From contig NZ_CP053906.1 of NCBI RefSeq assembly GCF_013256425.1, forward strand, positions 1 to 64,000: a stretch of 64,000 nucleotides of DNA, in the 5' to 3' direction. Source of the stretch: Hymenobacter sp. BRD67 (GTDB lineage Bacteria; Bacteroidota; Bacteroidia; Cytophagales; Hymenobacteraceae). Under the pieces are notes generated by a model, which saw only the letters and a list, made by a program, of their open reading frames with translations, was not told where the DNA came from and did not search any database. How positions within the stretch are numbered: position 1 is the stretch's first letter; the number at the start of each line of letters is the position of its first letter. The translations under genes and the position numbers were made by a program. Positions 783-41,833 of this stretch are shown here, piece by piece.

Positions 783-1940
783 ATGATTGACAAGTTCAGC
801 GATATAGACGCTCTGCTTAACGGGCTCATGAAGCCGGACAAGCAGACACTTCAGACGCTTTTCGATAAAAAGCTTCTAGAACTAGAGATGGCTCTAACGA
901 ACGCATGCAAAATAATTGACATTCAGCCTCGTACACTGAAGGGGATTTTAAGCGGGACACAAAAATTAGTTGACATTACCAACCTTGCTAAGCTAGCTAA
1001 CTTCTTACAACTACCTAAAGAGCAAGTAGTCAAACTATATCTAGACACAGTAGAAGAACATTTTCCTACAGATACGATTACCCCTGACAGAATCAACTTT
1101 ATTAAAGAAAATTTTAATTTGGCTGTACTGCGCAAATCTGGCTTGATTGATAACATCACCGATTTTGCTCACATAGAACAACGGTTAACTGCTAGACTAG
1201 GCCTGAAATCTATATTTGAGTACAGAAAGCCTAATGTAGACATTGCTTTTAGCTCGGGGAATTTTAAAGCAGAGAATGACCTAACCCGTGCCTATTGGGT
1301 TAACGCCGCAAAGGTTGCATTCAAAGAAATTGATAATCCTTACCCATACAGTCGGGATGAACTTATCAAACTTGTTCCTCAGCTACGCTGGTATACTACA
1401 AACGTAGATATGGGTCTGGTAGATGTAGTGAAACAGCTTTATAAGGTTGGTATTACAGTCATTTTTCAGCAATCATTACAGACACTACAATTGCGAGGTG
1501 CAACATTCAGTGTCAATAGCAAGCCATGTATTGCACTTACTAATTACGTTGGCTTCTATTCTACCGTATGGTTTGCCTTAATCCATGAGTTATATCATGT
1601 TCTCTTTGATTGGGAAGAAATAAAGATTAATAAATACCACTTAACTGATGACTCCAATGAGCAATTATCAGTTAGAGAGCGCGAAAAGGAAGCAGATGAT
1701 TTTGCGCGGGGGTATTTGTTCTCCCAAGAGAAAACCGAACAAGTAAAACGCTTCATTAATGATGCGGAATACGTCGCTGAATTTGCGGCGGAAAACCACG
1801 TCCATAGTAGCTTCCCTTATGTTTTTGCGGCATTCGGGTCAAATAATAGAACAGCTTGGGCATTAGCGCGTGCCAAGTCTCCTGACGTTAGTCGTGCAGT
1901 AGAACTCATCGATATGACCTGTCATGGGCAGAAATGGTAG
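783..1940 (+). CDS. HTH-type regulator fused to ImmA/IrrE metallopeptidase
   Basis: This 385-aa protein combines a helical N-terminal part (about residues 30-90), resembling an XRE-type DNA-binding domain, with a C-terminal ImmA/IrrE zinc-peptidase domain. The zinc motif HELYH is at residues 268-272 and is preceded by the usual FALI stretch. Proteins of this build cleave partner repressors to switch on mobile elements, or act in toxin-antitoxin modules. A -7-like box TATATTTG lies at 738-745. The next gene (P63C-like) follows after 46 bases on the same strand, so the two probably form an operon. Codon use is AT-rich, unlike the GC-rich plasmid backbone, which suggests transfer from another host. 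The peptidase call is confident; the DNA-binding part is inferred from helix pattern and position. Confidence 0.8.
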   Translation: MIDKFSDIDALLNGLMKPDKQTLQTLFDKKLLELEMALTNACKIIDIQPRTLKGILSGTQKLVDITNLAKLANFLQLPKEQVVKLYLDTVEEHFPTDTITPDRINFIKENFNLAVLRKSGLIDNITDFAHIEQRLTARLGLKSIFEYRKPNVDIAFSSGNFKAENDLTRAYWVNAAKVAFKEIDNPYPYSRDELIKLVPQLRWYTTNVDMGLVDVVKQLYKVGITVIFQQSLQTLQLRGATFSVNSKPCIALTNYVGFYSTVWFALIHELYHVLFDWEEIKINKYHLTDDSNEQLSVREREKEADDFARGYLFSQEKTEQVKRFINDAEYVAEFAAENHVHSSFPYVFAAFGSNNRTAWALARAKSPDVSRAVELIDMTCHGQKW

Positions 1941-3066: not shown

Positions 3067-4398
3067 ATGAGTGATTTTCAGTATAAGAATAACAAGTTTA
3101 CTTCCAAAGACATTGACGCTCAAGATACTGGTGTCACAATTAAAGAAGCTCTTTTGTTAATTCGGGATAGTGAGTATTATGATGACATCTATGCAGCCCT
3201 CAAAGTAGGCGAAATCATTAATGAGACTGTTGCTATACCTGGAGCACGGATGCTTATCAGTTGCGTAGACGCTGAAAGCAAGCGCTATACAAAGGTTGAC
3301 GTTAGTAAGAAATACGAAGACCTTCAATTTGAGATTTCAGATGACGAATCTGTAATCAACATTGCATTTCCCTCTAGCGACAATTATCCTGTTGCCTTCA
3401 CTGCGTCTCCTATTTACTCGGCACAGACTGACTTCTTCGAGAATTCATGTAGCATGAGCAAATATGCTAACAAGCTGATTAGAAGGGAGCGCATTGACGT
3501 AGTTCTTGAGAATCTAGAATCTATTCGTTCTATCTATACCGAAGGTAAAGACACACATGAATACAAGTATCGGCTTCTTAAGGATAGCAAAGGAAATCAC
3601 TTTTTTCGGGCTACAACCTCTATTACACACTACAAAGACTATAATATTGGTCTTTCTGTATTTGTTGCTTTAGTTGCTCTGTATCGACATATGCAGGCCA
3701 CGACTGACAAGTTCGTTGTCAACCGTTGTGAATATAATGAATCTTCAATTAGAGTTTACTTTGAAAAACTGGGTAAACGTTCAACTCCTATTGGTGAGGT
3801 GAAATACCTTGTGGAACTCAATAATAGTGAGATTAAGGAGGGCGCGGTAAGATTCTCAGGTGTTTGCGCTATTCTCATTGAAGATAACAAAGCTGATAGG
3901 GATGCCATTCACAAAGAGAAAATTCACCTCGGTATTGAAACAGATTATGAAGAATATGAAGAAGGTGGAAAACGAGAATTACTCGTTAAACCTCGCCCTA
4001 CTAACCTAAGGTATTCTATCCAAGGTATCAAGCACAATGTAAATCCAAAAAAAGCTATTCCAAGCATGATTTTGGCGAGTAAAATTCAAAAAAATGAGGC
4101 AAAAATCTATGATGATTTAGCTTCTATTGGCGAAGCCCGCTCATTTAGTGCAATTCGAAAATCTATTGTGGATAAGGTAAAGAGAATTCAGAAGGAGAGC
4201 GAACTAGGCGAGTTCAAATCTTCCATGCAGAAAGAAATACCTGAAGCAATTGAAAATTACCACGAACTTCTACGTCTATTAAATCGATTAGACCTGATTG
4301 CATCCAGTAGCCTTGATGCGAAAGAACAACTTCGTTATTTATTCTACGAAGCGCTAATAGAGCGGCGGAATCTAGGTTTCGAACAGCCCGAAGAATAG
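3067..4398 (+). CDS. Unrecognised 443-aa protein of the accessory island
   Basis: I do not recognise this protein. It is soluble and acidic, with no signal peptide or membrane segment. The N-terminal two thirds look like mixed alpha/beta. The last about 110 residues are charged and helical and include a stretch that could form coiled coil (SFSAIRKSIVDKVKRIQKES). Base composition is AT-rich, like the neighbouring reverse transcriptase gene, suggesting both came from the same donor. It is transcribed towards the reverse transcriptase gene and the two are separated by a perfect 66-bp palindrome. Whether it works with the reverse transcriptase or is a stand-alone defence or cargo gene cannot be told from sequence. 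The full-length open frame and start after a non-coding gap make it a real gene. Confidence 0.75.
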   Translation: MSDFQYKNNKFTSKDIDAQDTGVTIKEALLLIRDSEYYDDIYAALKVGEIINETVAIPGARMLISCVDAESKRYTKVDVSKKYEDLQFEISDDESVINIAFPSSDNYPVAFTASPIYSAQTDFFENSCSMSKYANKLIRRERIDVVLENLESIRSIYTEGKDTHEYKYRLLKDSKGNHFFRATTSITHYKDYNIGLSVFVALVALYRHMQATTDKFVVNRCEYNESSIRVYFEKLGKRSTPIGEVKYLVELNNSEIKEGAVRFSGVCAILIEDNKADRDAIHKEKIHLGIETDYEEYEEGGKRELLVKPRPTNLRYSIQGIKHNVNPKKAIPSMILASKIQKNEAKIYDDLASIGEARSFSAIRKSIVDKVKRIQKESELGEFKSSMQKEIPEAIENYHELLRLLNRLDLIASSSLDAKEQLRYLFYEALIERRNLGFEQPEE

Positions 4399-4427
4399 GT
4401 CGAATAAAGTGTCTTACTAATTCAAAA

Positions 4428-4493
4428 ATCTCAAATGATAAGACCCAAGGGCTAAGCAAATTTGCTTAGCCCTTGGGTCTTATCATTTGAGAT
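4428..4493. repeat. Perfect 66-bp palindrome, likely bidirectional terminator
   Basis: The two 33-base arms at 4428-4460 and 4461-4493 are exact reverse complements with no spacer; the left arm starts ATCTCAAATGATAAG and the centre is AAATTT. It lies exactly between two convergent genes, so a transcript from either side would end in the same very stable hairpin. There is no long T-run, so it is not a textbook terminator. A perfect palindrome this long is unusual because it tends to be deleted during replication. Confidence 0.8.
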
Positions 4494-4503
4494 CTACATA
4501 AAT

Positions 4504-6045
4504 CTAGTCATAATTATACTTGTCAGTTTTGCTATCAATAGTCGCTAGACCGAACTCTCTTATACCACGTGAAATAGCATTGTGAATTCGCAGAAAACTA
4601 GGAATAACAAATGCATTTACACTTTTTGTTGACTTCAAAACCCGTTTTCTTATTTTACAAATTTCTACTAGATTATCTACATCTAAGTTGTAAGGAAATA
4701 AAGCTTTTTGACTTCCAAAATGCTTGCTTAAAATACTTTCTCGCAATCTTAAACAATTAAGAATTGTAGACACCAACCATTTATCTATATCTTTTAATTG
4801 CTGTGTATTATCTACAAGAGGATAATAACTCATTAATCCTTTAAATTTTAAGTGTTTATATTTTCCCTTTAAATAAAGCCTTAATTTATGCTCTGAGAGG
4901 TTACCATACATATACCTTCTAATCTGATGTATCGCACTGGCAAACGCACCTTCATCGTCATTAGCAGGCAGCTTAACAGCATTAGTAATGCCTGCATTCA
5001 ATGGCTGCAAAAGATTTCTGTATAAAATGTAGCTAATTTGCTTCTTTGCCTTTTTAAAAGACTTATCTTTAATAGCAACCCCATTATATGATAAATGATA
5101 ACCTAGAAAATCAATATTAGTCTTCGTTTTAAAAACCTCTGAACTGGATGAATAACTTTTTTCAGTTAACAAACTGATTCCATTGGATTTTTTTATATTT
5201 ATAGAAACTCCTGATACATTGCTAAATTCATGTATTATATTGAACGCTCGGCATATTTTCTCGTAACTATCAGACCATATGACTGTATCATCTGCATATC
5301 GAGCGAATCTAACACCTTCTCTTTCTAGGTCTCTGTCTAGTCGCCAACAAACTAGGTTTGCTAGAAACAATGATATAGATGTCCCTTGCGGAACACCTTT
5401 GCCATTTAATCTTTCTAGGAATTTTTTTATTAAACCTCTCTCAGCAGTGGACGTGATAAATGCATTTTCAGAGAGCTGAGAAAATAAAAATGGATGATTA
5501 ATAGAATCAAAAAATGCGGAGAAATCAAATTCTGCTACAAACATTCTTGGATATTTACTTAAATCATGAAAAATATCCTGTATTGCATGATGCGCGTTTC
5601 TATCATTTCTATAAGCATAAGAAGAACCACTAAACCTATGTTTATTTTTGCTTAAAAGTTGTGAATAAAGCTTTTTAGAGATAACGGCATCTGGTATTTG
5701 GTAAACGCTAATCTCCCTAATCTTTCCATTTGCCTTTTTTACAGGCATCGTATGCGGAAGGTTTGGGCTATATATACCTTGTTGAAGTTTTTTGTAGACA
5801 GACTTCGCAATTTGCTTACTATGCTTAATCACATAGAAAGGATTATATAATTTAGATTCTAACCAATAAGATGGTGTGTGAATTTCCTTTTTCTTAGGGT
5901 TTGTTATTCTAAGCTCAGACTTTCTATGCTCTATCACCATGTAATTATGGTACAGCTGAAAATACTTTGCCTCTTTTTCAGCTTGCTTCATGATTGCTTC
6001 CTCTAACTCATTCTCAGAGTCAAAAATATTTATATTAGCGCTCAT
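4504..6045 (-). CDS. Reverse transcriptase of defence (DRT) type
   Basis: This 513-aa protein is an RNA-directed DNA polymerase. Motif A is AEFDFSAFFDS with catalytic D174, motif B is GVPQGTSIS around residue 220, and motif C is YADD at 250-253 with the two catalytic aspartates. SINIKKSNG and DFLGY follow as motifs D and E. There is no maturase, endonuclease or integrase domain and no group II intron around it. About 120 N-terminal and 190 C-terminal residues extend beyond the polymerase core. A stand-alone enzyme with a long structured non-coding leader matches single-gene defence reverse transcriptases such as DRT2 or DRT9, which copy an adjacent ncRNA; retrons are an alternative. The exact class cannot be fixed from sequence alone. 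The start was chosen because the leader with its hairpins begins just upstream. Confidence 0.88.
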   Translation of the reverse strand: MSANINIFDSENELEEAIMKQAEKEAKYFQLYHNYMVIEHRKSELRITNPKKKEIHTPSYWLESKLYNPFYVIKHSKQIAKSVYKKLQQGIYSPNLPHTMPVKKANGKIREISVYQIPDAVISKKLYSQLLSKNKHRFSGSSYAYRNDRNAHHAIQDIFHDLSKYPRMFVAEFDFSAFFDSINHPFLFSQLSENAFITSTAERGLIKKFLERLNGKGVPQGTSISLFLANLVCWRLDRDLEREGVRFARYADDTVIWSDSYEKICRAFNIIHEFSNVSGVSINIKKSNGISLLTEKSYSSSSEVFKTKTNIDFLGYHLSYNGVAIKDKSFKKAKKQISYILYRNLLQPLNAGITNAVKLPANDDEGAFASAIHQIRRYMYGNLSEHKLRLYLKGKYKHLKFKGLMSYYPLVDNTQQLKDIDKWLVSTILNCLRLRESILSKHFGSQKALFPYNLDVDNLVEICKIRKRVLKSTKSVNAFVIPSFLRIHNAISRGIREFGLATIDSKTDKYNYD

Positions 6046-6059
6046 GATTCATATTGCAT

Positions 6060-6600
6060 TTTAATTGTAAACAATAATACCTGTCTTCAAAAATGAAAAC
6101 AGGTATTACCACGGACACAACTCAATTAAAATTAAGCAGTAAACTAGCGTTCAAGCTTACGAGGCTTTTACGCACCACGAACAAACCTTAGCCTGTTAGT
6201 GAGGTATCCGTTCGTCCCCTGAGGACATGCTGCAAACATAGGCATGTGGAAGAGTTATTTTTCATTCTCTGCGCTGTGTGCTCCACGCTCAGCCCTGAAA
6301 GGAGTAGTTAGTACGCCCATAGAACAACTCATCCGATAGGCCTTTATGCAAGAAGAGTAAGACAATTAAAGCATTCATGACAGCTTTTATACTGGCTGCT
6401 ATAGTCTTTAAGGCAGGACGCATACAGCCACCGGTAGTATCCGCGAGCAGGCCATTGCCGACGAATATTCTATTTAGGCTAACCAACGCTAGATAAACTA
6501 TTCAGTTGTGGCCAGTTTACTCCGCAAACTGGCCATTACTTTCAGCTGCATGGCTGAAGGCAACTGCCTACTCGCTGCTCACAAAGACCAATTCGGTCTG
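6060..6600 (-). ncRNA. Candidate structured non-coding RNA upstream of the reverse transcriptase
   Basis: The 819 bases between the reverse transcriptase start and the divergent regulator gene hold no convincing gene but many hairpins. From the reverse transcriptase outward they are: 6075-6108 (10-bp stem TAATACCTGT plus 4 bp); 6177-6215 (ACGAAC/GTTCGT with inner ACCT/AGGT); 6225-6247 (ACATGC/GCATGT); 6509-6535 (TGGCCAGTTT/AAACTGGCCA, 7-base loop); 6541-6558 (TTCAGC/GCTGAA); and 6585-6599 (AGACC/GGTCT). In the hairpin nearest the gene the single mismatch is C-A on the plus strand but a U-G wobble in RNA made from the minus strand, which favours transcription in the direction of the reverse transcriptase. 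Exact ends are not visible. By analogy with DRT systems this RNA could be the template. Confidence 0.5.
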
Positions 6601-6810
6601 TAGACTCGCAAGATCCATTAGTAGCAATAGAAGGTGGTCATGTCGAGCGCGGTGAATCAGAGTCACTTTCTCTAGCTAAAATGCTGTGAATTAGTATTTT
6701 TCTAGATAGAGAGGCTAGATAAAAGGCTACAGCCCAATGGGAACAGCTGAATGAAGTGGCTACTAAGAACACCGTGTTACAAAATAAAACCATTTTTTAA
6801 AGATTGTCGT

Positions 6811-6838
6811 TATATTTGTCACATAGAGTGGCCACTCT
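6811..6838 (+). promoter_or_regulatory. Promoter box and palindromic operator of the XRE-ImmA-PIN module
   Basis: TATATTTG at 6811-6818 fits the Bacteroidetes -7 consensus TAnnTTTG. Seven bases later a perfect 14-bp palindrome, AGAGTGGCCACTCT at 6825-6838, covers the expected transcription start, 27 bases before the regulator's ATG. This is where an autorepressing XRE protein would bind. No good -33 TTG at the usual spacing was found. Confidence 0.55.
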
Positions 6839-6864
6839 TTATCCTGCCGTGAGGCATCATTCCC

Positions 6865-7224
6865 ATGACCATGCAAGAATTCACCCCTGGATTGGGGAAC
6901 AATATCAAGACCCTGCGCGAAAACATGGGCCTGAACCAGCAGCTGTTAGCTGAATACCTCGGCGTATCCCGAGGCGAAGTATCCTATTTTGAAACCGAAG
7001 CCCGCCGCCCCAACCTCACCATCCTACGCAAACTCTCCGACTTATTCGGCGTCAGCCTAGCCGACCTACTTTCCACCGAGCCCACCGTTCAGGCGCTCAA
7101 CGCGGCTTTTGCTTTCCGCTCGGCCGGTGCCATTAGCCTCACTCATCTCGAACAAATTGCCTCGTTCCGCCGCATCGTATCCAACTACGTGCGCTTGGAC
7201 AATCTCCTGAGCCGTGAAGATTAA
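6865..7224 (+). CDS. XRE-family transcriptional regulator
   Basis: This 119-aa protein has a standard Cro/C1-type helix-turn-helix in residues 9-66: NIKTLRENMGLNQQLLAEYL, then GVSRGEVSYFETEARRPNLTILRKLSDLFGVSLADLL. The last 50 residues are helical and probably bind the partner peptidase. Its end overlaps the ImmA/IrrE gene by 11 bases, which ties the two together in translation. The palindrome at 6825 is its probable operator. With the next two genes it forms a three-part regulator / peptidase / PIN module, in which the regulator is expected to act as repressor or antitoxin. Confidence 0.87.
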   Translation: MTMQEFTPGLGNNIKTLRENMGLNQQLLAEYLGVSRGEVSYFETEARRPNLTILRKLSDLFGVSLADLLSTEPTVQALNAAFAFRSAGAISLTHLEQIASFRRIVSNYVRLDNLLSRED

Positions 7225-7962
7225 AGACGTTGAAATTCAGCAGTTGGAGGCCAAAGTAGCCCGCTTTCGCCAGCAGCACGGCCTAGGTCGTGGTCGCTCC
7301 ATTGACATGGAAAAGTTACTGCTGCACCTTGGCGTGCGCACGGTATTCAAGCCACTCGATGGCCTTTTCTCAGGCATGGCTATCAAGCACGACGGCAAGG
7401 CATTTATGCTCGTTAACTCCGACCACTCTCGCGGCAAGCAGAATTTCACGATTGCTCACGAGCTGTACCACCTCTGCGTGCAGCCCAATTTTACGCCTCA
7501 TCCTTCGCAGGCGGGTCGGTTTGGTTCCCAAACCGACCCGAAGAGCTGTTTGCAGATTGGTTTGCCGCGCTGCTCCTCATGCCCGATTTCCGCATCTTGG
7601 TGGTAGCTGATGAGGCCGGTGAAATGGAGCCTACTCCCCATCTCTCTCTAAACACAGTAGTAAAGCTGGAGCAGGAGTTTCAATGCTCCCGCCAGGCGCT
7701 ACTGGTGCGCCTCGAAAACATGGGCTTGATTGCCCGCACTCGGTGGGAAGAATGGGCCGCCAGCCCAGCGGCTACCGCGCGCCAGTTTGGCTTTCCCACT
7801 GAACTATACCGTACCACTCCCCATCGCAAGTCTATAGGTGACTATGTGCCGCTAGCCTCGCAAGCCTATGACAAAGACCTTATTACCGAAACCGACTACG
7901 CTAACATCCTGCGAGATTTTGGCCTTGACCTGAGCGATATCGGTACCGAAACCCCTGATTAA
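7214..7962 (+). pseudogene. ImmA/IrrE metallopeptidase, frameshifted
   Basis: The first part carries the zinc motif in FTIAHELYHLC. The family's next conserved block, PEELFADWFAALLLMPDFR, is found only in another reading frame. The frame must change between about 7500 and 7540, and an exact 13-bp inverted repeat lies at that point. Joined, the protein would be about 249 aa, the usual size for a stand-alone ImmA/IrrE protein, and would end LDLSDIGTETPD at 7962. It would cleave the XRE partner or release the PIN toxin. The break may be a real mutation, a sequencing error or a hairpin-induced shift. The second part could also start at an ATG at 7579 but would then lack the zinc motif. Confidence 0.75.
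7512..7540. repeat. 13-bp inverted repeat at the immA frameshift point
   Basis: CGGGTCGGTTTGG at 7512-7524 and CCAAACCGACCCG at 7528-7540 are exact reverse complements around a 3-base loop. The repeat sits inside the coding region exactly where the ImmA/IrrE reading frame is lost. Confidence 0.7.
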
Positions 7963-9469: not shown

Positions 9470-10438
9470 ATGACGCTATTACAATGCATTGGCCAGTTGC
9501 TGGCCGATATCACCATCACCGATAAACAGACTTCTTCGGTGAGCACGACCTACAACAACCTCAAAACTCTGCTGCTGGATAGCGAGAGCAAGCTCAACGG
9601 CGAGCGGGTATTCCAAAACGGCTCTTATGACCGCGATACCATCATCAAGCCGCTCGATGATGTTGATATCTTCCTAGTACTCGACCGTACCGAATATGAA
9701 GATGGTGGTGTGCTTCGCAAGCCACAAACGGTCCTGACCAAGCTAAAAGATTACCTGAACAGCACTCGCGACTACAAGGATAAGGCTGTGCAGGACCGCC
9801 CCTGCGTCACGGTGCACCTGTGCGACAAGCGCTTCGACGTGCTGCCCTGCTTCGGCGACGACCTCGAAGGCTACTGGATACCTGATTCCGACCTCTCCGG
9901 CTGGATATGGTCCAACCCCGTTCTGCACTCTGAGAAGCTAACCGAAGTGAATAAATTGCGCAAAGGTCGCATCGTGCCGCTCATCCGCATTCTGAAATAC
10001 TGGAATCGGGAAAAGCTGGGCAAACTCATTCCATCCTACCACATCGAGGATATCGCTACCCACATTTTCACGCTCTTCGATACTGCTAACCACGAAGACG
10101 GCGTGCACACTTGGCTACGCTATGCCACTAACTACCTCGACTCCGACAAATTCGCGGACGAAGATGATTACAACGACGCCGTTGAGGCCATTTCCGCCGC
10201 TTATGAAAAGATAGACGAAGCCCATACGCTCTATGAGGACGGCAAGGAAAACGAAGCCATCAAGCTCTGGAAGGAGGTTTTCGGCACCAAGTTTCCCACT
10301 ATTTCCGATGCTGAGGCTCGCCAGCTCAACGAGTCTATGCGGTCGGGCAGCCTGAAAATAGCCGGCACCGGCTTGCTGGGTGCCACTGGTCAGCGGGTGC
10401 CACCTACTTCTTACTTCGGTGATGACGCGCCCCGCTAG
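9470..10438 (+). CDS. CBASS CD-NTase (cyclic oligonucleotide synthase)
   Basis: This 322-aa protein has the nucleotidyltransferase core of the cGAS/DncV-like family: NGSYDRDTIIKPLDDVDIFLVLD with Gly51-Ser52 and the metal-binding pair D64 and D66. The third aspartate is likely D123 in CDKRFDVLPCF. The C-terminal half is helical, as in the SMODS/OAS1-like domain, and ends GDDAPR. When phage infection is sensed it would make a cyclic di- or trinucleotide that activates the effector. The stop overlaps the start of the E2-like gene by 17 bases, showing translational coupling. In type II CBASS the E2-type partner attaches the enzyme's C-terminus to a target. The nucleotide product cannot be told from sequence. 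Confidence 0.87.
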   Translation: MTLLQCIGQLLADITITDKQTSSVSTTYNNLKTLLLDSESKLNGERVFQNGSYDRDTIIKPLDDVDIFLVLDRTEYEDGGVLRKPQTVLTKLKDYLNSTRDYKDKAVQDRPCVTVHLCDKRFDVLPCFGDDLEGYWIPDSDLSGWIWSNPVLHSEKLTEVNKLRKGRIVPLIRILKYWNREKLGKLIPSYHIEDIATHIFTLFDTANHEDGVHTWLRYATNYLDSDKFADEDDYNDAVEAISAAYEKIDEAHTLYEDGKENEAIKLWKEVFGTKFPTISDAEARQLNESMRSGSLKIAGTGLLGATGQRVPPTSYFGDDAPR

Positions 10439-10835
10439 CCCACGCCCAAAACCCTACCGCGTGGCCGCGCAAGTTGCAGCCATGCGGCAGCGCTATCCGC
10501 AATTCACGGTGCGGGCCAGCCTCAGCGACCCTCGTTTTCTGACCTTCACCGGCGAGGTGCTAGCCCACGAAACCTTACCTGTTTACACCTTAAGGATAAG
10601 CTACTGCTACAATCAGCCTCCACTGGTGCAGGTGCTCGCACCCGCACTGGTCGAGACGCCCCCGCACTTCTACGCCGATACGCAATCGCTCTGCCTCTAC
10701 CATCCCCGAGATTTTACGTGGTCCCGAGAGGTATCTCTTGCTGCCGAAATTGTGCCGCGGGCAGTAGGGTGGGTGTATTTCTACGAAAAGTGGCTCCAAA
10801 GCGGGGAGTGGTTCGGTGACGAAGCCCCTCACTAA
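10422..10835 (+). CDS. Stand-alone E2-like conjugating protein of CBASS
   Basis: This 137-aa protein resembles the E2 domain of the CBASS protein Cap2. PPHFYADTQSLCLYHPRDFTW carries the putative catalytic cysteine C91 in the L-C-L context, after a conserved histidine, and the C-terminus reads WLQSGEWFGDEAPH, similar to the W-x-G-x-E-x-x-H tail of these proteins. No E1 or JAB protease domain is present here or nearby, so the operon fits the short type II CBASS layout with E2 only. It starts inside the end of the CD-NTase gene and would act on that enzyme. The start ATG at 10422 was chosen for this overlap. Confidence 0.8.
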   Translation: MTRPASPRPKPYRVAAQVAAMRQRYPQFTVRASLSDPRFLTFTGEVLAHETLPVYTLRISYCYNQPPLVQVLAPALVETPPHFYADTQSLCLYHPRDFTWSREVSLAAEIVPRAVGWVYFYEKWLQSGEWFGDEAPH

Positions 10836-10865
10836 AGTCTTGTTAATTCCCAACTCCTGTAATCT

Positions 10866-11675
10866 ATGGCCTTTCCATCCACCCGCGTGGTGCCTATCGA
10901 CAAGCAGTTCAAATTTGTTGAACGCCTGAAAATGTGGAGTGGCCGAGCGTTGATTGCCACCACGATTCTAACCCCGCTCATTAGCATCCTCGATAACCAG
11001 CCGCCGGCAACCATACCCGGTTGGGAGCCACTAGGTAAGTCAACACTGATAGCGTTTAATTGTCTGATAATTGTGGCCTTTGCTGGCCTAGAATTCATAG
11101 CCAGCGTTTTCCTTTCTAACGCTGAACGGGACCGTCGGTTAGACTTCTTGGATAATGCATTTGGCCAGCGCTATTCCGGTCAAACGTCGATTGGGTATTT
11201 CACTAACGACAACTTGCAGCCTGGTATCTACAAATGCCTGGTGAATTGCTTCGAAAATTGCTCACATTCACTGGCCATTGTTGATATGATGCTCCCACGC
11301 GAGATTGCCAAGGGCGTGCTAGTTATCTCGGTATTCGTGCTCACTGCTATATTTGGCAAACGAGAATTGATACGCCAGTTTTTTGAGCTGCCCCTAGCCG
11401 CTGTAGTGGTGCAGGACACATTAAGGCTTATTCTATTCCGGTTTCGCTTGGCGCAGAACCACGAAACTATCCGGTTTTTCTTTAACGACATGCGTGGCAA
11501 AGCCTTCGATGACAATCGGGTTGCGGCAGCTATGCGCGATATTCTGGGTTACGAAACCATTATCTCTTGGGCGGCTATTAAACTTGATAGCGATTTATTC
11601 AGCGAGCATTGGGACGACCTAGCACAGAAATGGGAGCAGCTTAAAAAGCAATACGATGTGCGGTCTATTGATTGA
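10866..11675 (+). CDS. S-4TM-like membrane effector of CBASS
   Basis: This 269-aa protein has four hydrophobic segments in two pairs: about residues 28-45 and 60-82, then 147-165 and 172-192, with a soluble stretch between the pairs and a charged C-terminus rich in tryptophan and acidic residues. This matches the SMODS-associated 4TM effector family. On binding the cyclic nucleotide such effectors disrupt the inner membrane and stop phage spread by killing the cell. It follows the E2-like gene by 30 bases and closes the operon. The effector call follows both from topology and from its place after the CD-NTase and E2 genes. Confidence 0.78.
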   Translation: MAFPSTRVVPIDKQFKFVERLKMWSGRALIATTILTPLISILDNQPPATIPGWEPLGKSTLIAFNCLIIVAFAGLEFIASVFLSNAERDRRLDFLDNAFGQRYSGQTSIGYFTNDNLQPGIYKCLVNCFENCSHSLAIVDMMLPREIAKGVLVISVFVLTAIFGKRELIRQFFELPLAAVVVQDTLRLILFRFRLAQNHETIRFFFNDMRGKAFDDNRVAAAMRDILGYETIISWAAIKLDSDLFSEHWDDLAQKWEQLKKQYDVRSID

Positions 11676-39171: not shown

Positions 39172-41833
39172 GCCGGCAGCGCCCCCTTGCGCTTCTGCTT
39201 TTCTTCCACGAACTGGTCGACGGCAAAGTCCAGCCGCTGCTCGGTCACGGTGGTATAGGTGGGCCGGCCGTCGGCGTCGCGCACCAGGTTGCCCAGCGCG
39301 TCGCGTACCTCCACGGGCCGCTGGCGCTGGTAGTGGCGCACGAGCTGGTTGAGGTAGTTGCGCTCGGCCGGCCACGAGGTGAGTACCGCATCGAGTTGGG
39401 GCGAAGCTTCCAGCGCGTAGACCTTGGCTTGGCTGCCCTGCTTAATGAAAAACTCCCGGAACGAGTCGGTGGAGCGCACCGAGCGAATCAAATCCATCTC
39501 GTGGCCCGTGAGGCCCAGCGGCGCCTGCAGGCGGACGAGGGAAGCCTCGTTGGTATGACGCAGGATGATTTTGGTCGAGGAGTTATCAATCAGGGTGTAG
39601 CCGATGGGCGAGTCGATAATCTCCTGAATGCCCTGGGTGATGATGGTGATGCTGCCGTTGGTTTTGCGGATGGTGCGGTACATTGACACGATGAACTCTT
39701 CCAGCACGCCCGAGAGTAGGGCCCAGGCTTCGTCGAGGGCGATGTACTTCACCGCGTCGGGAAACTGCCGGAACAAATCCAGGCTCAGCTCGGTGATGAG
39801 CATGGCCACGACCGGGTAGAGCGTGGGGTCGGTTTTCACCCGCGCCAGGTCAAAGCAGATAAGCGGGTACTGGCTCAGCTGCGCCTCCCGGTTGGAGTTG
39901 AGTACCTTGGCGTAGCGTCCACCCGTCACGAACTCGCCGAGCACGAGAAAGAACTCGTGCATGTCGATGTACTTCATGTCGGTCTGGTACTGCGCCCGCT
40001 GCAGGGCCAGCACCGCGGCACTTTCATCGGAGCTCTCGCCCTCCCCTACTACTGGCGTTTCAGCCCGCATCCACTGGTCGAAGCGCTGCACGTACTTATA
40101 AAAGCTTTCCATTCCTGGAAACTCCTCGTCGGATTGCCCCAGTCGTTCGTGCTGGTTTAGGTCGTGGTAGTAGCCAGTCAGAAAGCGCGAGAGGATGGTG
40201 CGCTCACTCTTGCTTAGGGCGCGGTCCTTGCCGCCCTTCCAGAGGGCGGCGAGCAGCGCCAGGTGGAAGTTCAGCTTCTCATCCGAGTAGTGCCAGGGCC
40301 CGCTTTCGCCTTCGCGCGGGAGCAGGAAGGGGTTGAACTCAATCGGATTCTGCGGGTCGTACTCGAAGTAGGTGTTCTCGAATTCCGGTCCCATCAGGCC
40401 CTGGAACACGTTGCGGTAAGTGCCGCCGATGTCGATGATAATCTGGCGGGCGCCGCGCTCGTAGCGCTGCACGATGAAATTCCCAAAGGTGTAGCTCTTG
40501 CCCGAGCCCGAGGGCCCGATGACCAGAGCGTTCTGGTTGTCGAGGTCGGTGTTGAAGAGGTTCACCTTTACCAGGTTGCGGAACCGGTCGCAGAGGTACT
40601 CGCCCGTGGGCTCCGGCCGGTACGTCGTGGTCCAGTGAAAGTAGCAGGCCGCCCGGTCGGCCGAAGTGGTAAGCCAGCGGTCCGGTACCTGATAGGCGTT
40701 GCCCGGTGCCAGGCCGAAGAAAAGGGGCAAAGTCAGGTAGCTTTCCACCACGGCTTCGGCCCCGAAGATGGCGCGGAAGGCCGCTGTGGTCTTTTCCACG
40801 TGCTCGCGCCGGGTCTGGTCGTCCACGTCCCAGAGCAGCACCGAGAGGTGCAGGCCCACGACCTGCTTGCTGCCCGAGCGCACTTCGGCCGTGAACTCGT
40901 CAATCTCAGCGGCCCGCAGGTGGTTGTCCTGCGTGGCCAGGAAAGAGAGCGAGTTGTTGATTTTTTTGTCGTTGTCCAGACTCTTAAGCTCGGAGCGCGA
41001 GTCCTGAATCAGCATGGCCTGCGTCAGCACGTGCGGGCAGGAGAGGAAGGCCGTGAGCGGGTAGAGCATGGGCGAGGTCACCCCGTAGCCGTTGCGCACG
41101 GCGGGGTGGGCCTCACTGCCCTGCCCTACCAGCGAGACAATGCTCACGCGGTTTTCGCCCACGGTGAAGGCGCCCGGCACGTTGCTGATTTCGCGGGTCA
41201 GCCCAACGGGCTCCTGGTCGAACTCCAGGTTAAAGTACTGGGTGAAGACCTGCGGCAGCTGCGTCTGATTCAGCCGGCGGTAGTCCAGGCCCCGAGCCCG
41301 CGCAAGCTTTGCAGCAGCTCGGTGGCGATGCGCTCGGCCGTGTCCAGCGTTTGGACCACGCCGGCAAACGGGTTCTTGGCCAGCTTATCCCCGGCGCGGT
41401 TCACCAGGGCACTGAGCACATTCGGCCGCACCGGCTTGGCCTCGTCTGAGGGAGCGAAGGAAACGAACAGGTAAGCGCGGTGAAACAGGACCAGCCGCTG
41501 GGCAAAGTGGGCGTTCATCTTGCCCTCGAAGTAGCCGGGGCGGTTTTCGCGGCCGGTGCTCTGGTAGGGCCGGTCATAGTACACATCGGTTTTCTGCACC
41601 ACCGTGCCCACGGGCAGGGTGCGTAGGGCGCCGAGCAGCGCTGACTGGAGGTTGGCATACTCTTCAGCCTGCCAGCTCTCCATTTCGGGGCATTCGAGCA
41701 CGAAGCCGACGCCCACGCGGCCATCGCGAAAGATGACCTTGTCGTCCTGGTAGGCGTAGGCCGGGTGCAGGTCCGCGAATTCCGCCGTTCGGGCTGCGGC
41801 GCGGTCGGCCGCCTTAGCGATGGGAAAGCTCAT
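39168..41833 (-). pseudogene. TraG/VirB4-like conjugation ATPase, one frameshift
   Basis: The N-terminal part begins MSFPIAKAADRAAARTAEFA and runs to ERIATELLQSLRGLG, where the frame changes at about 41290. The remainder reads LNQTQLPQVFTQYFNLEFDQ and then the full ATPase domain. Walker A is VIGPSGSGKSYTFG, Walker B is YIALDEAWALL, and TQGIQEI follows. The joined length is about 887 aa, usual for Bacteroidetes TraG. The protein is the motor that powers pilus assembly and substrate transfer. Its end overlaps the VirB6-like start by four bases. Confidence 0.85.

Follow-up and report, generated by a model that had tools for sequence, protein, structure and literature searches.

We identified a locus on a Hymenobacter contig that very probably encodes a two-component DRT9 (UG28) abortive-infection system, made up of a reverse transcriptase (RT) and its own upstream noncoding RNA (ncRNA). 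The stretch of DNA that we analyzed, hereafter the window, comprises bases 1–64,000 of a 93,613-base (93.6-kb) contig that we regard as plasmid-like. Eighteen plasmid records, all from Hymenobacter, resemble window positions 40,000–64,000, and among the plasmid matches listed (15 of the 18), several have conjugation or replication genes under the match. The RT gene occupies 4504–6045 on the minus strand as a full-length open reading frame (ORF) of 513 amino acids with no stops. Its GC content is 32.5% versus 59.5% for the whole window, suggesting that the gene was acquired from elsewhere.

Residues 11–509 of the RT match the Drt9 model of PADLOC with an E-value of 2.2e-190 (631.6 bits), compared to 122.2 bits for a generic RT model, 96.6 bits for RT_UG17, the next DRT model, and 70.5 bits for Drt2. 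Residues 11–512 align to the solved chain 9ioa (E 1.8e-152), the best solved relative, whose sequence is common to five further entries including the DRT9 structures 9NLV and 9NLX (PMC12483538); the next-best solved chain is that of the GsI-IIC RT (E 3e-20). Judged by sequence, the RT is a member of the DRT9 (UG28) family, with the UG28 assignment made from profile and structure-chain matches. The initial annotation had proposed a divergent or new subclass. What we find is a further, divergent representative of a known family, carried on a plasmid-like contig; the RNA, template and structure of that family are already published (PMC12483538, PMC12489045).

The initial annotation had also described complete catalytic motifs and the absence of an intron, integrase or endonuclease partner; our searches bear out the catalytic motifs and the lack of an intron. 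D174 and a YADD motif at residues 250–253 are present in the ORF, RVT_1 is the sole Pfam match to the protein (E up to 0.1), and no Rfam family, intron RNAs included, reached its gathering score in the window. We considered whether the protein could be a group II intron maturase residing in a truncated intron, as group_II_RT_mat leads the seven NCBIfam matches to the RT. The score of 150.1 bits falls well below that model's cut-off of 300, however, and the Drt9 model and DRT9 structure match far better. Moreover, no Drt9 model is among the seven matches, so NCBIfam offered no better-fitting class than group_II_RT_mat. With RVT_1 alone in Pfam and no intron RNA at gathering score, we consider a group II origin vanishingly improbable and place the protein in DRT9.

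Searches for relatives recovered an E. coli locus, L002 (chromosome NZ_CP039298.1), whose RT is 51% identical to the window RT, and two usable loci in a viral collection, L005 and L006, with 47% identity each; a further viral hit, L012, is the L006 contig again. Among 5,426 E. coli genomes, two matched the window gene and three, one of them partially, matched the E. coli locus. The phage records held no DRT9 match and the plasmid records held one, L004. No other genome of the phylum among 395 (own genome counted) matched at E up to 1e-60, and at E up to 1e-50 the host genome was the sole positive in its order (291 genomes), family (204) and class (395), these four sets being overlapping. Scans of genome contigs with a few peptide patterns gave no confirmed relative, a result that is not evidence of absence. 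We dropped one candidate, L007, which shows 23–24% identity over part of the RT. Four of six stretches found by RNA pattern (L008, L009, L010 and L011) have no DRT9 RT by tblastn, and we regard them as chance matches. In the literature, 438 DRT9 RT homologs and 201 ncRNAs have been reported (PMC12483538); a literature search for DRT9 in Bacteroid- or Hymenobacter hosts found no paper, although such members may already be published.

To number residues we used the 499-amino acid product of L002, which fits the numbering of PMC12489045 (YADD at 243–246, tyrosines at 496 and 498). The catalytic residues D174 and Y250-A-D-D253 are intact in the window RT, the latter aligning to Y243–D246 of L002. 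Y25, K98, R104 and R140 of L002 correspond to the identical residues Y32, K104, R110 and R146. An AlphaFold model of the RT, built from three sequences, has a mean pLDDT of 47.9; Y32 aligns with Y25, and the N-terminal helix extension itself appears only in this low-confidence model. The C-terminal tail reads KYNYD; its two tyrosines (Y510 and Y512) are the aligned counterparts of Y496 and Y498 in the L002 product. We propose these as putative priming tyrosines: in E. coli DRT9, Y496 and Y498 are critical for protein-primed synthesis (PMC12489045), and two C-terminal tail tyrosines are likewise implicated in PMC12483538.

The E. coli DRT9 RNA is 188 nt long with six stem-loops and positions U124–U127 near the active site (PMC12489045), and its U4 tract is implicated as the template (PMC12483538). 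Counting back from U124 would put the first base of the L002 RNA at 4489, with the RNA ending where the RT start codon lies. L002, L003, L005 and L006 all show the motif CTTA-N-TTTTA-N-TT. At a constant distance after it comes CC(A/G)TG(A/G), and beyond this lie a hairpin and the start of the RT, in that order. The window carries the conserved U-rich (U4) template of DRT9 ncRNAs as CUUAAUUUUAAUU at 6124–6136 on the minus strand, located by pattern match, with the presumed templating U4 at 6131–6128. The motif CTTANTTTTANTT matches the 64-kb window once, whereas 100 shuffled versions gave no match, and the spacing from the template to the 3′ strand of the closing helix is the same in the window as in L002, L003, L005 and L006.

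Around this template, the predicted ncRNA runs on the minus strand from stem-loop SL1 right up to the RT start codon (6046–6226; 181 nt). Its length is probably about 160–180 nt, with a structured part at about 6226–6073. SL1 (6214–6226) has a 5-bp stem and a 3-nt loop, GUCCU CAG GGGAC, and all four distinct loci have this 5-bp/3-nt shape with anchors chosen by eye. Fold and alignment both identify the closing helix, with its 5′ strand, ACGGAUAC, at 6204–6211 and its 3′ strand, GUGUCCGU, at 6111–6118. Fold and repeats identify a 3′ hairpin equivalent to SL6 at 6073–6110, with a 17-pair stem that includes a U·G wobble. The initial annotation held that the hairpin closest to the gene (arms 6075–6089 and 6094–6108) pairs better as RNA of the RT sense, and this is borne out: its 17 pairs are unbroken on the minus strand, whereas mismatches break the stem on the plus strand. 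The minimum free energy fold of 6228–6069 on the minus strand contains SL1, the closing helix, inner stems and the 3′ hairpin, with a z-score of -5.7 against shuffles. We counted three aspects of the fold against the DRT9 explanation. The plus strand of the same segment also folds better than shuffles (z -3.9). In the minus-strand fold, the template lacks a wide open loop: its first U is base-paired, and a 7-bp hairpin carries the remaining three in its 4-nt loop. The middle stem-loops, finally, could not be aligned to their E. coli counterparts.

We examined covariation in the closing helix across the distinct loci, leaving L003, which is nearly identical to L002, out of the count and L004 out of the RNA alignments. 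With anchors chosen by eye, standard pairs form at eight of eight positions in three loci and at seven of eight in L005, and in the distinct loci the helix is followed by a stem of 14–17 pairs. In alignment A10, which comprises four sequences, pairing holds in 96.7% of 30 cells, and five of the eight pairs are changed on both sides; here gaps affect two of the eight pairs in L006, and L005 has one unpaired position. The covariation score of 0.604 was reached in none of 500 shuffles, and the best of six slid versions scored 0.375. At least as many pairs with changes on both sides arose in 17 of 500 shuffles, a result that we counted against the DRT9 explanation. When the window is removed, the remaining three sequences also show five of eight pairs changed on both sides. 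Pair counts exclude three MAFFT alignments (A2, A5 and A6) in which the 5′ part of L006 was out of place.

We also built a covariance model, R1, from L002, L005 and L006, with the closing helix as its sole structure and the window left out. Against the 64-kb window, R1 gave a single match at E up to 10, located at 6213–6109 on the minus strand (19.1 bits, E 0.071). Against the 819 bases upstream of the gene alone, searched unfiltered, the same match has an E-value of 0.00089 and the next has 0.47. Over six sources, the model's own members scored 70–154 bits, the window 19.1 and a chance place in L002 12.3, with nothing in L004 or L007 at E up to 10. An E-value of 0.071 is modest at the scale of the whole window, but we find the match convincing as a candidate DRT9 RNA given its position, strand and template. 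Overall, the covariation of the outer helix on four sequences supports a conserved RNA that adjoins the RT gene on the RT strand, with the outer helices directly upstream as in other DRT9 loci and the middle stem-loops of the window unmatched. The locus is consistent in this respect with the initial proposal of a single-gene, defense-type RT, which in all likelihood copies a neighboring ncRNA transcribed from its own strand.

A DRT2-type system, which would copy its RNA by a rolling-circle route into a concatemeric gene (neo), resembles this arrangement: DRT2 (UG2) too has a single RT with an upstream ncRNA, and the two families have a common ancestor and layout (PMC12489045). The published product mechanism of DRT2 is different from that of DRT9, however, and the Drt2 models fit the window RT poorly, with 70.5 bits in PADLOC and 63.4 bits against a cut-off of 390 in NCBIfam, so that the protein falls outside Drt2. 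As the locus also carries the DRT9 U4 motif and the C-terminal tyrosines, we judge DRT2-type copying to be highly improbable and retain the assignment to DRT9.

The Bacteroidota -7 promoter consensus is TAnnTTTG. Just upstream of SL1, TATGTTTG at 6233–6240 on the minus strand fits this consensus and is a possible ncRNA promoter, on weak evidence; TAnnTTTG occurs in the window at chance frequency (22 observed versus 20.6 expected). A sigma-70 scan of 4300–6900 found 14 sites versus 8.8 (s.d. 3.6) in shuffles; on the minus strand, no site lies immediately ahead of SL1. The 3′ hairpin is followed by GUUUACAA, which is not a clean U run, and a terminator scan of 4300–6900 flagged one terminator-like site, which is not this hairpin.

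The initial annotation treated the whole 819-base region upstream of the gene (6046–6864) as one hairpin-rich leader. The inverted repeats that it described are present, yet only about 6226–6046 matches the RNA of relatives. We therefore asked how the distal part should be read, including the possibility that a new DRT subclass copies a hairpin-rich leader of about 800 nt into a long cDNA. Several inverted repeats across 6046–6864 and the fold of 6343–6597 on the RT (minus) strand, which is better than shuffles (z -3.6), would fit such a leader. However, on the opposite strand this segment (6343–6597, plus strand) is a decayed remnant of an unrelated protein gene, from its 3′ end, and lies outside the DRT9 RNA. 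In a comparison with 120 genomes of the genus (own genome included), positions 6391–6596 match a single genome besides the host, where the matching sequence is the end of a long ORF. A tblastn search with that ORF aligns to 6343–6597 across 85 codons that are 54% identical and include five in-frame stops (E 6e-21). The distal inverted repeats (6365–6390, 6504–6540 and 6531–6568) therefore sit in a decayed gene, and of the proposed 819 bases the DRT9 RNA takes up roughly the 180 nearest the RT gene. The 819 bases have no match in the plasmid records. As to whether the distal leader is a repeated element, in the 120-genome comparison, which scored at most four candidates per genome among the genomes listed, the remnant alone was matched outside the host, in that one other genome. 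Since the protein is a plain DRT9 as well, we regard a long copied leader as very unlikely and favor the short DRT9 ncRNA.

Several other features lie near the locus. Downstream of the RT is a convergent, adjoining 443-amino acid ORF (3067–4398, plus strand; 38.7% GC) with no match in PADLOC, Pfam, NCBIfam, PHROGs or, by tblastn, plasmids. Between these two genes lies a perfect 66-bp palindrome (4428–4493) with 33-bp arms and no spacer, which has a z-score of -15 when folded as DNA and of which no other copy was found in the host genome. It is possibly a two-way terminator, though it is unusually long and perfect and was not flagged by the terminator scan. Further along, an ORF at 783–1940 (plus strand) resembles PD-Lambda-2_B (E 6e-18), also matches M78 peptidase at a score below the cut-off, and is followed by a P63C-domain ORF at 1987–2634. 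On the other side, 6865–7962 (plus strand) holds an HTH gene and then an M78 (IrrE-like) ORF that ends at 7606 and overlaps an ORF in another frame starting at 7579, as if one gene had been broken by a frameshift. PADLOC also identified a CBASS-like set at 9470–11675 (plus strand), with an oligonucleotide cyclase (9470–10438), a 4TM effector (10866–11675) and, between them, a 151-amino acid ORF with no Pfam match.

The window locus can be compared with two other DRT9 systems. Like the Salmonella and E. coli systems (SenDRT9; 9ioa, 9nlv, 9nlx; PMC12483538, PMC12489045), it has a near-full-length match of the RT, a YADD motif, the lock residues and a Y-x-Y tail, and its upstream ncRNA has SL1, a closing helix, a U4 template and a 3′ hairpin. 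Unlike E. coli DRT9, its RT shows only 51% identity, its middle stem-loops are unaligned, and its host is a Hymenobacter in which we found no exonuclease I (ExoI; see below). The second system, L004 on Thioclava plasmid p3, also matches the Drt9 model (E 1e-145), but its RT is 30% identical to that of the window, has one tyrosine in its last five residues (VYELQ), and is directly followed by a SLATT gene, whereas the ORFs that neighbor the window RT (3067–4398 and 6865–7224) have no Pfam SLATT match. With a single tail tyrosine and an RNA that R1 did not find, the L004 branch (3863–5993) may differ in template or priming.

Two contacts of the published E. coli complex were not found in the window. 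In E. coli DRT9, R205 and K208 hold U67 of a neighboring protomer's RNA; in the window RT this pocket is replaced, with E211 and G215 as the aligned residues. Likewise, a U occupies the expected site of the kissing nucleotide G114, as located by an offset count from the U tract only, so that neither the C94–G114 nor the U67–R205/K208 contact is present. The assembly loop of the window RT is also three residues longer than that of E. coli. We counted all of these differences against the DRT9 explanation. Among the relatives, L006 lacks both R205 and K208, and L005 lacks R205. The C94–G114 and U67 contacts are those of one complex, and we did not count them as defining features of DRT9.

As every catalytic, lock and priming residue that we tested is present, along with the template and the outer helices, the published DRT9 mechanism is the best explanation for the locus. 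DRT9 synthesizes poly-dA from a U4 template, probably with a C-terminal tyrosine as primer (PMC12483538). By homology, the window ncRNA would fold around the RT and offer its U4 tract to the active site, where a tyrosine of the RT's own C-terminal tail, Y510 or Y512, would prime synthesis. The RT would then copy the U tract over and over into a long poly-dA that is still linked to the protein. In published work, poly-dA accumulation drives abortive infection, and a U4-to-A4 mutant makes mainly poly-dT (PMC12483538). Phage infection of the Hymenobacter host may similarly lead to a build-up of poly-dA, upon which the infected cell would stop growing or die. In this model, the poly-dA product, protein priming, oligomer assembly and abortive-infection defense are carried over by analogy with published DRT9 work, whereas we observed directly that the RT belongs to the family, that its catalytic and priming residues are intact, and that the locus has the template motif and an outer RNA helix that covaries.

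In E. coli, ExoI removes poly-dA, and SenDRT9 gave no transformants in an sbcB deletion strain (PMC12483538). The C-terminal family of ExoI, PF08411, had no match in the Hymenobacter host genome, which is 94.4% complete. In a control search, E. coli was the sole positive among 14 control genomes, and PF08411 was found in 2 of 198 genomes of the phylum. The host does have ExoVII and two RNase_T (DnaQ-like) domains. An ExoI could also lie in the missing part of its genome, although that would make the host an exception in its phylum. With no ExoI found in the host and ExoI essential for tolerance in E. coli, another silencer, or none, must be at work; DRT9 could be kept quiet by another nuclease, by lower activity or because the complex is inactive.

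The last of these possibilities amounts to a locus that is DRT9 by descent but no longer works, the RT having moved into a plasmid and the RNA core having drifted to leave an inactive or silent complex. Such a complex would account for survival in a host without an ExoI match, whereas an E. coli sbcB deletion strain yielded no SenDRT9 transformants (PMC12483538), and it would fit the lack of conservation of several published RNA–protein contacts and the status of this locus as the sole DRT9 in the sampled genomes of the phylum. The ORF, however, is full-length without stops, the catalytic, lock and priming residues that we tested are intact, the template is intact, and the outer helix is kept by compensatory pairs. 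The compensatory pairs and intact template point to selection, at least until recently, and we consider an inactive system unlikely. We tentatively propose, at slightly less than an even chance, that DRT9 works in this host without ExoI, checked by a different nuclease or by a lower intrinsic activity of its altered RNA–protein contacts. If so, its silencing, and perhaps its phage trigger, would differ from the E. coli model.

Apart from its host and the ExoI question, the locus is an ordinary member of a published family. Its ncRNA is a natural variant in which the outer helix, SL1, the 3′ hairpin and the template are kept while the middle is changed, and may thus help show which parts of the RNA are needed. 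The ExoI gap in a host that carries DRT9, in turn, sharpens the question of how DRT9 is tolerated.
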